Source: Bacteroidota bacterium (lineage in GTDB: Bacteria > Bacteroidota > Bacteroidia > Chitinophagales > Chitinophagaceae). From it: 64,000 nt of DNA. The stretch is from NCBI GenBank assembly GCA_947476145.1, contig CANJPH010000002.1, forward strand, positions 62,001-126,000, in the 5' to 3' direction. Within the stretch, counting starts at the first letter, position 1. Each line of letters starts with the position of its first letter. Below, in pieces: positions 8,928-39,236 of this stretch. Under the pieces are notes generated by a model. It worked only from the letters and a program-made list of their open reading frames with translations. It did not search any database and was not told where the DNA came from. Both the position numbers and the translations under genes were made by a program.

Positions 8928-9545
8928 ATGGCCATTACCAAGAATTTGATTTTTGATTTAGGGAATGTTTTGTATGATATAGATTTCGTAAAAATGTATG
9001 ATGCCTTTGAAGCACTCGGTATTCCTCATTTTGAAAATCATTTTACGCTCAATAAATCTGATCCACTTTTTTTCGATTTAGAAAAAGGTTTTATTAATGA
9101 GGATGAATTTTGTGCCGGTTTTAATGCCTTATGCAAATTGAATTTACCCAGGCATCAAATCATTGACGCCTGGAACTCATTGTTAGTGGGGTATCGAAAA
9201 GAAAGCATTGACTGGGTGAAGACTCATAATAATAAGTACCAGACATTTTTGTATTCCAATACCAATCAAATTCATTACGATTATTTTATTCCTCAGTTTA
9301 CTCAAGACTTAGGCGGGCAATTCGAGAATTTGTTCAAAACACCTTATTATTCCCATAAAATGGGTCAAAGAAAACCGGATCCAGCTTCTTTTCAGTTTAT
9401 TTTGGATAAGGAAGGGTTGATTGCTGAGCAAACCCTATTTATAGACGACAATGAACCCAATGTGATTGCAGCCGCCTCGGTGGGTATGCAGGTTTTGTAT
9501 TTACAATCGGGCATGCGGGTGGAAACGGACCTAATTATTTCTTAA
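8928..9545 (+). CDS. HAD-superfamily hydrolase (subfamily IA)
   Basis: A 205-aa haloacid-dehalogenase-fold phosphatase. Motif I is FDLGNVLYD with Asp10 as the likely nucleophile. The helical cap contains FDLEKGFINEDEF. Motif II lies in FLYSNTNQIHYDYF, motif III lysine in GQRKPDPASF, and the acidic motif IV is LFIDDNEPNV. The relatives include dehalogenases and sugar-phosphate or nucleotide phosphatases; substrate unknown. Its 3' end overlaps the convergent DUF4834 gene by 11 bp. Confidence 0.88.
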   Translation: MAITKNLIFDLGNVLYDIDFVKMYDAFEALGIPHFENHFTLNKSDPLFFDLEKGFINEDEFCAGFNALCKLNLPRHQIIDAWNSLLVGYRKESIDWVKTHNNKYQTFLYSNTNQIHYDYFIPQFTQDLGGQFENLFKTPYYSHKMGQRKPDPASFQFILDKEGLIAEQTLFIDDNEPNVIAAASVGMQVLYLQSGMRVETDLIIS

Positions 9546-9768
9546 CTTCTTCAAAATCAATGTATTCTGCATTTAAAGGAGCCTCTTTTTTAGGCGCCGC
9601 AGTGGTTGTATTTGCCTCCGCTTTTTTAAATGCCTCGGCTTGCTGGCGTTGCATCTGTTCCATATTTTGACGCACTTTTTTTACCCCCTTACTAACGGGG
9701 ACCACCACTTCAAAAATGACCTTATATAAAAAGTAGACTACAAATCCGTATAGAATTAGCTTTAACAT
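9535..9768 (-). CDS. DUF4834 family small membrane protein
   Basis: A 77-aa protein. Residues 1-24 (LILYGFVVYFLYKVIFEVVV) form one membrane span, followed by a basic, glutamine-rich cytosolic tail with QNMEQMQRQQAEAFKKAEA likely to be helical. This matches the Bacteroidota-restricted DUF4834 family, whose function is unknown. It overlaps the HAD gene tail-to-tail. A perfect TATTTTTG box stands 5 nt before the start, so a near-leaderless mRNA is predicted. Confidence 0.8.
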   Translation of the reverse strand: MLKLILYGFVVYFLYKVIFEVVVPVSKGVKKVRQNMEQMQRQQAEAFKKAEANTTTAAPKKEAPLNAEYIDFEEVKK

Positions 9769-9798: not shown

Positions 9799-9830
9799 TT
9801 GGGTTATTTCATCCCGTTTTATTACCTTTG
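9799..9830 (+). promoter_or_regulatory. Promoter of the rimP-nusA-infB operon
   Basis: TTG at 9799-9801, a 21-nt spacer, and TACCTTTG at 9823-9830, an exact TAnnTTTG box. The transcript is predicted to start near 9834, giving a 55-nt leader that contains a strong hairpin. Confidence 0.75.
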
Positions 9831-9851
9831 TTCAAGAATAAGCAGAGAAAT

Positions 9852-9885
9852 GAAGGGAACGAAATCGTTCCCTTCTTCTTTTTTA
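9852..9885 (+). promoter_or_regulatory. Terminator-like hairpin in the rimP leader (candidate attenuator)
   Basis: A perfect 11-bp inverted repeat GAAGGGAACGA / TCGTTCCCTTC with two bases between arms (effectively a GAAA-type loop). It is followed by TTCTTTTTT and then the rimP ATG at 9889. The shape is that of an intrinsic terminator, but it lies inside the operon leader. It may therefore be an attenuator or a site for binding or processing. Confidence 0.6.
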
Positions 9886-9888
9886 ACT

Positions 9889-10359
9889 ATGGAAGTAAAC
9901 GATTTAAAAGAAAGGGTATACGGTTTAATTGAGCCTCTATTATTAGAGGATCCGGAATATTTCTTGGTTTGGGTGAAGGTGAAACCAGGACATATAATAA
10001 AAGTATATCTAGACGGAGACAATGGCTTACCTATTTTAAAGTGTACTTACTTTAACCGTAAGTTATACCGAGCCATTGAAGAATCAGGTTGGTTTCCAGA
10101 GGGCGATTTTGCTTTGGAGGTTTCTTCACCAGGTGTGGATGAGCCATTAGAATTAAAAAGACAATACAATAAAAATATAGGCAGAAAAGTGGAGGTGGAG
10201 ATGTTAGATGGTACTAAGAAAGAAGGTACTTTAACAACGGTAGCAGAAGCAGATATTTTGATTGAGTGGACTGAGGGTAAGGGTAAAAAAGCAACCCAGC
10301 AACAATTGCTTATTCCATTTGAAAATATTAAAACAACAATAGTTCAAATTCAATTTTAA
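9889..10359 (+). CDS. rimP: Ribosome maturation factor RimP
   Basis: A 156-aa 30S-assembly factor with the N-terminal domain fold EVNDLKERVYGLIEPLL and the family core FALEVSSPGVDEPL. The C-terminal SH3-like domain ends with IPFENIKTT. The track start at 9799 would translate the promoter and hairpin; ATG 9889 matches family N-termini and is used. It is the first gene of the classical rimP-nusA-infB operon, with nusA 38 bp downstream. Confidence 0.93.
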   Translation: MEVNDLKERVYGLIEPLLLEDPEYFLVWVKVKPGHIIKVYLDGDNGLPILKCTYFNRKLYRAIEESGWFPEGDFALEVSSPGVDEPLELKRQYNKNIGRKVEVEMLDGTKKEGTLTTVAEADILIEWTEGKGKKATQQQLLIPFENIKTTIVQIQF

Positions 10360-10397: not shown

Positions 10398-11648
10398 ATG
10401 GCAAGTATAAATTTGATAGAAGCCTTTCAGGAGTTTAAAGACGCAGAAAGCATTGACCGTCCAACCATGATGAAAGTGGTTGAGGATGTATTTAAAACTT
10501 TGTTAAGAAAAAAGTATGGTAGCGACGAAAATTTCGACGTTATTGTAAACGCTGAAAAAGGGGATTTGGAAATTATCCGTCGTCGTGAAATTAGACCCGA
10601 TGATGATGTGGACAATCCATTGGCGGAAGTTTCTTACTCTGACGCAATCAAGATAGAGCCTGACTTTGAGATAGGTGAGGAATTATTAGAAGAGGTTAAT
10701 ATTTTTGACTTTGGTCGTCGTGCAATTTTAGCTGCAAAGCAAACTTTAGCATCTCGTATCAACGATTTAAAGAAAAACGCTTTAGTAAAAAAATATTCTG
10801 ATCGCATTGGCGAAATAATGAACGCTGAAATTTATCAGGTTTGGAAAAAAGAAGTTTTGTTATTAGATGAAGAAGGAAATGAATTAATTCTTCCTAAGAC
10901 TGAACAAATTCCTCAAGACTTTTTCAAGAAAGGAGAAAACATTAGAGCAGTGATTGCTCGTGTGGATATGAAAAATAATTCTCCTGTAATTATCTTGTCT
11001 AGAACGAGTCCATTGTTCTTAGCTAAATTATTAGAAATTGAAGTTCCTGAAATTTTTGATGGCTTAATTACGATTAAGAAAATTGTTCGTGAGCCAGGTG
11101 AGCGTGCTAAAGTAGCTGTTGAATCATTCGATGATCGTATCGATCCAGTGGGTGCTTGTGTAGGAATGAAGGGCTCTCGTATTCACGGTATTGTTCGCGA
11201 ATTGAAAAATGAAAATATTGACGTAATCAACTTTACAACCAATACGCAATTGTTAATTCAACGTTCATTGACGCCAGCAAAAATAAGCTTTATGAACATA
11301 GATAATGATCGCATGCGCGCGGAAGTATACTTGCAAGCAGATCAGGTTTCTTTAGCCATTGGACGTCGTGGGGTGAACATTAAATTGGCTTCTGAATTGA
11401 CAGGATATGAATTAGATGTATACCGCGAGGACGAAGAAGTATTAGAAGAGTTTGATATTGACATGGACGAGTTTACAGACGAAATTGAGCCATGGATTAT
11501 CGACGAATTTAAGCGTGTAGGTTGCGATACGGGAAGAAGTGTATTGAAATTAAGCGCGGATGAATTAGAAAGAAGAACAGACTTAGAAAAAGAAACGATT
11601 GCAGATGTGCGACGTATCTTACAAGAAGAGTTTGATAAAGGCGAATAA
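10398..11648 (+). CDS. nusA: Transcription termination/antitermination factor NusA
   Basis: A 416-aa factor that binds RNA polymerase and modulates pausing, termination and antitermination. Order of domains: the N-terminal polymerase-binding domain, an S1 domain near 135-200, and two KH domains. The first KH region carries DPVGACVGMKGSRI and the second LAIGRRGVNIKLA. An acidic helical tail follows. The track starts at TTG 10380; ATG 10398 (MASINLIEAFQEF) fits the family and is preferred. It lies between rimP and infB. Confidence 0.95.
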   Translation: MASINLIEAFQEFKDAESIDRPTMMKVVEDVFKTLLRKKYGSDENFDVIVNAEKGDLEIIRRREIRPDDDVDNPLAEVSYSDAIKIEPDFEIGEELLEEVNIFDFGRRAILAAKQTLASRINDLKKNALVKKYSDRIGEIMNAEIYQVWKKEVLLLDEEGNELILPKTEQIPQDFFKKGENIRAVIARVDMKNNSPVIILSRTSPLFLAKLLEIEVPEIFDGLITIKKIVREPGERAKVAVESFDDRIDPVGACVGMKGSRIHGIVRELKNENIDVINFTTNTQLLIQRSLTPAKISFMNIDNDRMRAEVYLQADQVSLAIGRRGVNIKLASELTGYELDVYREDEEVLEEFDIDMDEFTDEIEPWIIDEFKRVGCDTGRSVLKLSADELERRTDLEKETIADVRRILQEEFDKGE

Positions 11649-11725: not shown

Positions 11726-14668
11726 ATGTCAGAATTGAAACTACCAAGACTGTTAGCAGCTGCTAAAGAATTCAATGTGGGTCAAGATACCATTGTTGAT
11801 TTCTTGGCTAAAAAAGGTTTTCCTAAGGACGACCTTAAGCCAACAGCTAAATTAACAGAAGCGCAGTACTATGCATTGCAAGCTGAATTTCAAAGCGATA
11901 AAGTTGCTAGGGATAAGGCGGATCATGTTGAGTTGCCAAAGAATGCAAGCACAGATAAAGCAAAGAAAGCAGACGATGCTCCAGTTGCTGATGCAGGGAA
12001 AAAAGTAAATGCAGCTGATACAGAAGTAAAGAAAACCGAAGCGCCAAAAGCAAGTACTAAAAAAGCAGATGGCTTTGCCGAAGAAGCGCCAAAAGCAACT
12101 GTTACGAGTGAAAAAGCAAAAGCAGCTACTTTAAAAGTAGATGCACCGGAAGTGGAATCACCAAAAGTGGTTAATAAAATTGATCTTTCTACAATAGATT
12201 CTTCTACTAGACCAAAAAAGGCTACCAAGAAAACTACGGAAGACACGGATAAAAAAGCGGAAGCTGCTAAACCAGCTGAGGCAACAGAAGCCGCAAAAGC
12301 AGCTGATGCTAGTGGAAAAGCGAAAGCAGGCGCCAAGAAAACGGCTACTAAAAAATCAGAACCAGCACCTCCAACGGATCATTCTATCGCACCAGAAAAT
12401 GTGCACGGAGAAATTACTAATATTCAAGCTGATAAATTAACAGGTCCTAAAATTTTAGGGAAAATAGATTTACCTATTAATAGTGATACAAGACCTAAAC
12501 CATTAAGTCAGGAAGAAAAAAGAACACGTAAACGTATTCCTGTTCAAGGTCAAGGCAATCGTCCTCAAGGACAAGGCCAACAAGGTGGCGGAGGCTATCA
12601 GGGCAATCGTCCTCAAGGTGGCGGAGGTTATCAAGGCAATCGTCCTCAAGGCGGCGGGGGCTATCAAGGCAATCGTCCTAACAATCGTCCTGGACAAGCA
12701 GGTGGTGGTGCACGTAGAAATGTACCTCAAACAGCGGAACAAAAAGAAATCGATAAAAAATCAATTCAAGATAAGATCAAGGAAACACAAGCTAAATTAT
12801 CTGGCCAAGGTGGTAGAGGTAAGAGCATGAAATCCAAGTATCGTCGTCAAAGAAGAGAGGAAGCTGCTGAAAATGAAAACAACGAACAAAGAGAAGACAA
12901 CAAATTACAGGTAACTGAGTTTGTAACCGTGAGTGAGTTATCATCTTTAATGGATGTAAGCTTTGCGGATATTATAAGCAAGTGCATGAACTTGGGGATC
13001 ATGGTTTCTATCAACCAACGTTTGGATGCGGAAGTCATTGAATTAGTTGCCTCTGAATTTGGATTTGAAGTAGAATTTGTTGGATTGGAAGACGTAGAAG
13101 AAATGGATGAACAAGAAGAGGCAGACGATTTAGCTAATTTGGTGGAGCGTCCTCCGATTGTTACCATCATGGGTCACGTGGATCATGGTAAAACATCTTT
13201 ACTAGATTATATCCGTAATGCCAATGTAGTTGCAGGTGAGGCCGGTGGTATCACACAACATATTGGGGCATACGAGGTAACATTGCCAAATGGAAAAGCC
13301 ATTACTTTCTTGGATACACCAGGTCACGAAGCCTTTACAGCGATGCGTGCTCGTGGTGCCAAAATCACCGATATCTCCATTATTGTAGTGGCTGCGGATG
13401 ACGCGGTGATGCCACAAACCAAGGAAGCCATTAGTCACTCGCAAGCAGCGAATGTGCCTATGATTTTTGCGGTCAATAAAATTGACAAAGACGGTGCACA
13501 ACCGCAAAAGATATACGAGCAATTATCTCAAATGAATATTTTAGTGGAAGCTTGGGGTGGTAAATTCCAAAACCAAGAATTGTCTGCTAAACAAGGTTTG
13601 AATGTAGATGCTTTATTAGAGAAAGTGTTACTAGAATCTGAAATTTTAGATTTAAAAGCCAATCCAAATAGAGAAGCGACTGGTAGTGTAATTGAAGCAT
13701 CCTTAGATAAAGGCCGTGGATATGTGGCAACTATATTAGTGCAAAACGGGACCTTGCGCCAAGGAGATTTAATTTTATCTGGCCAATATTATGGTCGCGT
13801 AAAAGCCATGTTCAATGAGCGTAATCAACGTATTGAGGTGGCACCTCCTTCCACACCAGTGGTGATATTAGGCTTGAATGGTGCACCACAAGCGGGTGAA
13901 AAATTCAAAGTATTCGATGACGAAGCAGAAGCAAAAGAATTAGCTACTAAACGCGCTCAATTATTAAGAGAGCAAGGTTTAAGAACTAGAAAACATATTA
14001 CATTAGACGAGATTGGTCGTCGTTTGGCCTTAGGAAACTTTAAAGAATTAAACATCATCATTAAAGGTGATGTGGATGGTTCTGTGGAAGCCTTGAGTGA
14101 CTCTTTACAAAAATTATCTACCGAAGAAATTGCAATTAGAGTTGTATTAAAAGGAGTAGGTCAAATTTCTGAATCAGATGTATTGTTATCGGCTGCATCG
14201 GATGCGATTATCATTGGATTTAACGTTCGTCCAAGTATGCAAGCAAATAAGTTAGCAGAAACTGAAGGCGTTGAAATTAAAATGTACTCTATTATCTATA
14301 ACGCGATTGATGAAATCAAGAGCGCGATGGAAGGTATGTTGGAACCAAAAATTCAAGAAAAAATTGTTGCCAACGTGGAAGTACGTGAGGTATACAAATT
14401 TGATAAAGCCACTGTTGCAGGATGTTTCGTATTAGATGGAAAATTAAGCAGAAACTCTAAAATACGTATCATTCGCGATGGTATCGTTGAGTATCCAAAA
14501 GGCGAAGGTCAGGCCGCTGAATTAGGTAGCTTGAAGCGCTTTAAGGACGACGTAAAAGATGTTGTTTCCAATATGGAGTGTGGTTTAACCATTAAAAACT
14601 TTATTGATTTAAAACCAGGCGACATTGTAGAAGCATTTGAAGAAGAAGAAGTTAAACGTACTTTATAA
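11726..14668 (+). CDS. infB: Translation initiation factor IF-2
   Basis: A 980-aa GTPase that places initiator fMet-tRNA on the 30S subunit. A short N-terminal helical domain is followed by a long Lys/Ala-rich low-complexity linker and an Arg/Gly-rich segment with repeated [11 protein letters not shown] units near residues 277-315. The G domain has GHVDHGKTS (G1, near residue 482), DTPGHEAF (G3) and NKID (G4). Domains II-IV follow to the end. The linker is long, as is common in Bacteroidota. It is the third gene of the rimP operon. Confidence 0.97.
12554..12691 (+). repeat. 33-bp in-frame tandem repeats inside infB
   Basis: Two complete 33-bp units begin GGCAATCGTCCTCAAGG at 12602 and 12635. 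A longer 48-bp variant precedes them (12554) and a partial unit follows (12668). They encode the Gly/Arg/Asn-rich [11 protein letters not shown] repeats of the IF-2 linker. The copy number may vary between strains. Confidence 0.85.
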
Positions 14669-31159: not shown

Positions 31160-31197
31160 AATAAAAGAAGAATGAAGTGATTCATTCTTCTTTTATT
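31160..31197. terminator. Bidirectional terminator between the RND pump and an alpha/beta hydrolase
   Basis: A perfect 17-bp stem, AATAAAAGAAGAATGAA paired with its reverse complement, with loop GTGA. A-rich on the left and T-rich on the right, so it works on both strands. The stop codon of the minus-strand hydrolase lies within the stem. Confidence 0.88.
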
Positions 31198-38130: not shown

Positions 38131-38203
38131 GCGGAAGGTCTGATTGTTTGTATGCGAATAAATATACTCAGAAGCCTTCCAAGAAATTGGAAGGCTTCTT
38201 TAC
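38101..38203 (+). promoter_or_regulatory. Candidate transcription attenuator controlling asd
   Basis: Three stems can be drawn. Stem 1: CATACAAAACAA (38101-38112) with TTGTTTGTATG (38144-38154), 11 bp and one bulge. Antiterminator: GGAAGGTCTGA (38133-38143) with TCAGA plus CCTTCC (38168-38180), 11 bp and a 2-nt bulge. Terminator: AGAAGCCTTCCAA (38170-38182) with its perfect complement (38187-38199) and a GAAA loop. Antiterminator and terminator share a strand, so only one can form. Ribosome stalling at the Lys codons would mask the 5' strand of stem 1 and leave the antiterminator free. No promoter is seen between the terminator and asd. Confidence 0.6.
38170..38201 (+). terminator. Terminator hairpin upstream of asd
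   Basis: A perfect 13-bp stem with a GAAA tetraloop. The T tract (TTCTTT) is short. It lies 36 nt before the asd start codon and downstream of a strong promoter, so it is read as conditional. It could also end the pfkB transcript. Confidence 0.75.
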
Positions 38204-38237: not shown

Positions 38238-39236
38238 ATGAAAGTTGCAGTTGTTGGTGCCACAGGGCTAGTAGGTACAAAAATGTTACAAGTATTAGCA
38301 GAAAGAAATTTTCCCGTAACGGAATTAATCCCAGTAGCATCGGCACGCTCTGTAGGGAAGGAAGTGGTGTTTAAGGGGAAGGCCTATAAAGTAGTAGGCA
38401 TGGAAGAAGGCATTGCTGCTATGCCAGCGGTGGCTATTTTTTCTGCTGGTGGTAGTACTTCTACCCAGTGGGCGCCAAAGTTTGCTGAAGCAGGTATTCG
38501 TGTTATTGACAATTCTTCGGCTTGGAGAATGGATCCTACAAAAAAATTAATTGTGCCGGAAGTGAATGCAAGTGTATTAACAGCTGAGGACATGATTATT
38601 GCCAATCCAAACTGTTCTACCATACAGATGGTTGTGGCATTACAACCCTTGCATACAAAATATAAAATTAAAAGAGTGGTGGTGAGCACCTATCAAAGTG
38701 TAACAGGAACAGGTAAGCAAGCCGTGGATCAATTAATGGAAGAGCGCGCTGGTAATAAATTGGTAGCAGAACAGATGGCCTATAAATATCAGATTGATTT
38801 AAATGCGATTCCTCAAATTGATGTATTCTTAGAAAATGGATATACCAAAGAGGAAATGAAGATGGTAAAAGAAACTTGCAAAATTATGCAGGATGATACA
38901 ATCAAAGTTACAGCAACAACGGTGCGTATTCCAGTAATGGGAGGACATAGCGAAAGTGTAAATGTTGAATTTGAAAATGAGTTTGATTTGAAAGAACTCA
39001 TTGCAGCATTAGCGGCAGCTCCAGGGGTGGTCGTACAACAAGACGATGCTGCTCAGTTTTATCCAATGCCTTTATGGGCACATGAAAAAGACGAAGTATT
39101 TGTGGGACGTTTACGAAGAGACGAAACGCAAGCAAAAACTTTAAATATGTGGATTGTGAGTGACAACTTGCGCAAAGGCGCTGCAACCAATGCAGTTCAA
39201 ATTGCGGAGTACTTGGCTGCTCAAGGGATTATTTAA
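38238..39236 (+). CDS. asd: Aspartate-semialdehyde dehydrogenase
   Basis: A 332-aa enzyme that reduces aspartyl phosphate to aspartate semialdehyde with NADPH, the branch point to lysine/diaminopimelate, methionine, threonine and isoleucine. The N-terminal dinucleotide fold is VAVVGATGLVGTKML. The catalytic cysteine lies in IIANPNCSTIQM and the catalytic histidine in GGHSESVNVE. Length is normal. It stands alone after a terminator and is preceded by the leader described above, so regulation by aspartate-family amino acids is likely. Confidence 0.96.
   Translation: MKVAVVGATGLVGTKMLQVLAERNFPVTELIPVASARSVGKEVVFKGKAYKVVGMEEGIAAMPAVAIFSAGGSTSTQWAPKFAEAGIRVIDNSSAWRMDPTKKLIVPEVNASVLTAEDMIIANPNCSTIQMVVALQPLHTKYKIKRVVVSTYQSVTGTGKQAVDQLMEERAGNKLVAEQMAYKYQIDLNAIPQIDVFLENGYTKEEMKMVKETCKIMQDDTIKVTATTVRIPVMGGHSESVNVEFENEFDLKELIAALAAAPGVVVQQDDAAQFYPMPLWAHEKDEVFVGRLRRDETQAKTLNMWIVSDNLRKGAATNAVQIAEYLAAQGII

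Follow-up and report, generated by a model that had tools for sequence, protein, structure and literature searches.

The rimP-nusA-infB operon in the genome of a Sediminibacterium-like member of the Chitinophagaceae is preceded by an intrinsic-terminator-type hairpin situated between a predicted promoter and the rimP start codon (Table 1). This hairpin is the Bacteroidota version of the known rimP-leader element. It has counterparts before rimP throughout most of the phylum, its stem has been maintained by compensatory changes, and its sequence is confined to this one leader of the genome. The leader probably functions as an attenuator that works by intrinsic termination, without an antiterminator, the fraction of transcription stopped being set most likely by NusA.

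Anatomy and genomic context of the leader

The TTG and TAccTTTG elements, which we take to be a form of the main Bacteroidota promoter, place the predicted transcription start at ~9836, and the stem begins ~16 nt into the predicted RNA. The first-pass annotation had read this region as a promoter followed by a perfect 11-bp inverted repeat and a T-rich run ahead of the rimP ATG, all of which is confirmed in the sequence: the arms of the DNA repeat (9852-9875) match over exactly 11 bp and are 2 nt apart (GAAGGGAACGA-AA-TCGTTCCCTTC), and the RNA form of the repeat has 10 bp and a 4-nt loop (-15.8 kcal/mol for the hairpin alone). The U-tract has an early C interruption, and 13 nt separate the 3' end of the hairpin from the rimP ATG (9889-9891). 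A riboswitch-like or antiterminator alternative fold is ruled out by lack of both room and complement, the ~16 nt of leader 5' of the stem containing no usable complement to either arm.

Table 1. Coordinates of the rimP leader and operon features in the window (the whole 64-kb stretch of DNA that was analysed), with the loci of opposite-polarity leaders.
Feature	Position or loci	Strand	Basis or remark
HAD-like ORF upstream of the rimP promoter	8928-9545	+	
-33 element TTG of Bacteroidota-type promoter (predicted)	9799..9801	+	sequence; fits known Bacteroidota consensus
-7 element TAccTTTG	9823..9830	+	21-nt spacer from -33 element; predicted start ~9836
5' arm of terminator-type stem, GAAGGGAACG	9852..9861	+	G-rich; nearly fixed sequence in own family
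Loop AAAT	9862..9865	+	length and sequence variable among relatives
3' arm of stem, CGTTCCCTTC	9866..9875	+	C-rich; both-sided changes in 8/11 pairs
U-tract TTCTTTTTT	9876..9884	+	predicted release zone ~9880-9885
rimP, ribosome maturation factor, first operon gene	9889..10359	+	Pfam PF02576 (RimP_N), PF17384 (DUF150_C)
nusA, candidate trans-acting factor for the leader	10398..11648	+	Pfam NusA_N, KH_5
infB, translation initiation factor IF-2	11726..14668	+	Pfam IF-2, GTP_EFTU, IF2_N
Opposite-polarity leaders (families f35, f53)	L033, L044, L058, L059, L061, L067, L068, L070, L176, L182, L188, L192		

An in-frame ATG at 9850 or TTG at 9799 (MKGTKSFPSSFLTMEV...) would lead ORF callers to extend rimP through the hairpin. 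Of 94 distinct own-family leaders, only 20 have an upstream in-frame ATG, and the reading frame is not maintained from one species to the next; the hairpin is therefore taken as non-coding, and its reading as coding sequence from ATG 9850 is rejected, the extension not being conserved. The upstream extension of rimP is probably a pitfall for annotation in this genus, and gene callers should be cautioned against starting rimP inside the hairpin. The intergenic region is shared with a divergent 77-aa ORF on the minus strand (9535-9768), which has a hydrophobic N-terminal segment (MLKLILYGFVVYFLYK).

The hairpin is not a product of chance, as indicated both by the stability of its fold (-20.4 kcal/mol for the leader at 9836-9900, z = -4.48, with none of 200 shuffles equally stable) and by the enrichment of such hairpins in rimP leaders over other leaders and shuffles that is described below. 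When 11 kb around the leader were scanned with a generic consensus, terminator-like sites did not exceed those in shuffles (8 versus 7.5), so the pattern alone would not convince; the rimP-leader site has the most G-C pairs among the sites listed by that scan. In the window, the hairpin ranks sixth of 41 terminator-like matches, level with hairpins at gene 3' ends, and, alone among matches of similar strength, sits immediately between promoter and start codon.

Other inverted repeats of the window include a 17-bp perfect, AT-rich one (31160-31197, AATAAAAGAAGAATGAA...) between converging ORFs, which is probably a bidirectional 3' terminator, and a strong terminator-like hairpin (38170-38199) located 124 nt past the preceding ORF and 39 nt before the ORF at 38238, which is a 3' terminator or else a further leader element.

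The core stem motif has one exact site in the 2.06-Mb genome. A covariance model of the leaders (R1) scores 54.1 bits at the rimP leader and 31.6 bits at the next independent genome site, and the two best other matches are ordinary 3' terminators. By both exact search and model, the stem motif is specific to the rimP leader and absent from the other terminators of the genome. A repeat or mobile palindrome is ruled out by its single copy.

Conservation and covariation across Bacteroidota

Loci were sampled at genus, order and phylum level; rimP was located by profile in 219 of 220, and nusA follows it in 217 of 219. Perfect-stem terminators were found between -250 and +12 in 193 of 215 rimP leaders, compared with 10-21 of 215 dinucleotide shuffles (5-10%); because about half of the loci come from the own family, these numbers are not independent of one another, yet the rest of the phylum shows the pattern as well. 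Between -130 and +12, the same finder gave 189 of 215 rimP leaders (88%), whereas of 321 other-gene leaders at the same loci it picked out 19 (6%). A finder based on RNAfold that allows imperfect stems raised the rimP count to 204 of 215, with matches in nearly every family tallied.

Compensatory change was assessed in an alignment of 67 distinct leaders from the own family and order. Paired bases occupy 94.1% of stem cells, a value inflated by the choice of aligned rows for having the hairpin, which inflates the compensatory counts less: 8 of 11 pairs have changed on both sides (44 such cells versus 11.8 in shuffles, with 0 of 500 shuffles as high). When the partner column is displaced by 1-3 positions, pairing falls to 43-68%, and RNAalifold independently gives the same stem. 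The GGG of the 5' arm is invariant or nearly so in this alignment (A1), and the middle G-C pair of GGG/CCC is present in 67 of 67 leaders. The check proposed by the first-pass annotation, a search of Bacteroidota rimP leaders for a conserved, covarying hairpin, is thus strongly positive.

The putative promoter is conserved together with the hairpin. A TAnnTTTG element lies no more than 60 nt upstream of the hairpin in 103 of 106 leaders of the own family and in 56 of the 109 other leaders, compared with 4% expected from shuffled sequence, and the promoter-to-stem spacing is kept at 15-23 nt; every rimP transcript from that promoter must therefore cross the hairpin. It is on this account extremely improbable that the hairpin is an ordinary 3' terminator or insulator against read-through from the HAD-like ORF, with no regulation of rimP, even though its strength equals that of the 3' terminators of the window.

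The T-run is likewise a constant companion of the stem: with hairpins picked without requiring one, T accounts for a fraction of 0.84-0.99 at positions 4-7 past the 3' arm in the own family (106 leaders) and for 65-81% at positions 1-6 in the rest of the phylum. Most own-family hairpins end 9-19 nt before the ATG, near enough to affect initiation, as would suit a post-transcriptional role in which a 5' stem-loop protects the mRNA or hinders ribosomes from reaching the rimP ATG 13 nt further on. Across the phylum, however, the distance to the ATG varies from <10 to >100 nt while the T-run stays attached directly to the 3' arm, and a stabiliser needs no U-tract; such a role is accordingly rated quite improbable.

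The hairpin is not indispensable, since in a deep family (f55, 13 genomes) rimP lacks a convincing hairpin of this type upstream, both where it adjoins nusA and where the two are separated. In 9 of these 13 genomes, nusA has no rimP just upstream. In two genomes from one genus of this family (g128; L246 and L249), a conserved hairpin (CAGACTTT-CAGCGT-AAAGTCTG) with a T-run is found ~50 nt before nusA, with no rimP upstream, and may be either a leader attenuator or the 3' terminator of the preceding gene.

Stem classes and the proposed role of NusA

The stems fall into recurring classes, namely GAAGGGAACG, (GA)GGGGAC, AAAGTGGGG and an imperfect GTGAGCGTCG type. Beyond the own order, the leader model matches mainly related GGGGAC-type leaders, which indicates that stem sequence is lineage-bound. 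CCCG or TCCC cores are found in families f33, f38, f45, f49 and f57, and in families f35 and f53 the polarity is opposite, with a C-rich 5' arm (TCGCCC...GGGCGA or similar) in a short stem that immediately precedes the start codon. Terminators that occupy the same position but differ in stem form a clean natural series with which to ask what NusA recognizes.

From the hairpin and its U-tract we infer termination in the leader; the most likely sensor is NusA. Some RNA polymerase would stop at ~9880-9885, releasing an RNA of 45-50 nt, and the remainder would continue into rimP; a rise in NusA would increase pausing and termination and so lower the amount of operon mRNA. Polymerase-bound NusA would itself be the signal, and hence no sensing domain would be needed. 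The NusA feedback proposed by the first-pass annotation appears well grounded because there are precedents in the nusA leader of Bacillus subtilis, in a short leader RNA of Streptococcus agalactiae and in the E. coli operon, the dependence on NusA being carried over by analogy from B. subtilis. The strength of the stem (-15.8 kcal/mol) counts against it, as NusA is said to help suboptimal hairpins or U-tracts (PMC8060035); the U-tract here is, however, interrupted early by a C.

Within a lineage, the stem sequence is fixed well beyond the needs of pairing, which suggests recognition by a partner. That partner need not be NusA: read-through of a leader terminator might be set instead by RimP, which Naville and Gautheret also considered (PMC2965389), by NusG, for which an effect on intrinsic terminators is likewise described in B. 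subtilis (PMC8060035), or by another RNA-binding protein that reads the stem, or the terminator might be a constant damper of promoter output. Control by something other than NusA is nevertheless unlikely, given that NusA is itself a product of the operon and is established in B. subtilis as controlling its own synthesis by way of a leader terminator. A further idea, which is possible but on balance doubtful, is that NusA (or RimP) recognizes the near-fixed stem as a specific binding site, stem and partner having co-evolved lineage by lineage within Bacteroidota, the swap of polarity included. If true, Bacteroidota would hold a family of lineage-specific NusA-reading terminators. Attenuation by protein factors has been little studied in Bacteroidota, and with NusA as the probable regulator the leader offers a simple, testable handle on NusA homeostasis.

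Comparison with known leaders of the operon

A leader element upstream of rimP has been detected before in the same phylum: the transcriptome of Flavobacterium psychrophilum includes a structured 5' element before rimP that is conserved in Flavobacteriaceae and has no Rfam match, and the main text of that study names it in a list only, without a mechanism or a phylum-wide survey (PMC9723704). The Rfam family named for the leader of the same gene (RF01770, rimP) has no match at the Bacteroidota leader studied here in a scan to E 5 (the leader is absent from the 70 genome matches, and the gathering threshold of 47 bits is not reached), so its model does not score this leader.

In E. coli, expression of NusA represses the operon, according to references cited in PMC2965389, and two terminators (t1 and t2) are located upstream of rimP (PMC6511841). 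The earlier statement that E. coli autoregulates this operon by a different leader overstated the contrast, as terminators precede rimP in E. coli also.

In B. subtilis, NusA-stimulated termination in the nusA 5' leader autoregulates nusA (Mondal et al. 2016, as summarized in the review PMC12288461). As that review describes it, the B. subtilis element resembles the Bacteroidota one in being an intrinsic terminator that stands ahead of the nusA operon genes and reduces the transcription that reaches them; stimulation by NusA was demonstrated for the former (PMC12288461) and would apply by extension to the latter. The leaders differ in length, ~50 nt here versus ~180 nt in B. subtilis (PMC2965389). 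Closer in layout is the rimP-nusA-infB operon of S. agalactiae (gbs0413-gbs0418), a member of a different phylum with a similarly compact leader, from which a short RNA ends at an intrinsic terminator 31 nt past the start (PMC4448216); the evidence there is from RNA, whereas that for the Bacteroidota leader is from sequence.

The closest parallel is the rimP-leader of Naville and Gautheret (2010, PMC2965389), called the most ubiquitous bacterial attenuator, whose motif is a GGG...CCC terminator hairpin with a T-stretch and no antiterminator, 4-130 nt before the gene. The Bacteroidota hairpin shares with it the leader of the same operon, the GGG of the 5' arm and CCC of the 3' arm (GAAGGGAACG / CGTTCCCTTC), the T-stretch right past the hairpin, the short distance to the gene (13 nt), the lack of an antiterminator and a stem motif peculiar to this leader among terminators. 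It differs in the bases after GGG, which are AACG in the own family, whereas the published motif continues with a less conserved c. The main text of that paper makes no mention of Bacteroidetes, in which some clades have the opposite polarity. As far as the literature found shows, a near-universal rimP-leader hairpin in Bacteroidota, with stems fixed by lineage and a swap of polarity, is new, and it brings almost all of the phylum within the range of an autoregulatory attenuator already proposed to be near-universal.
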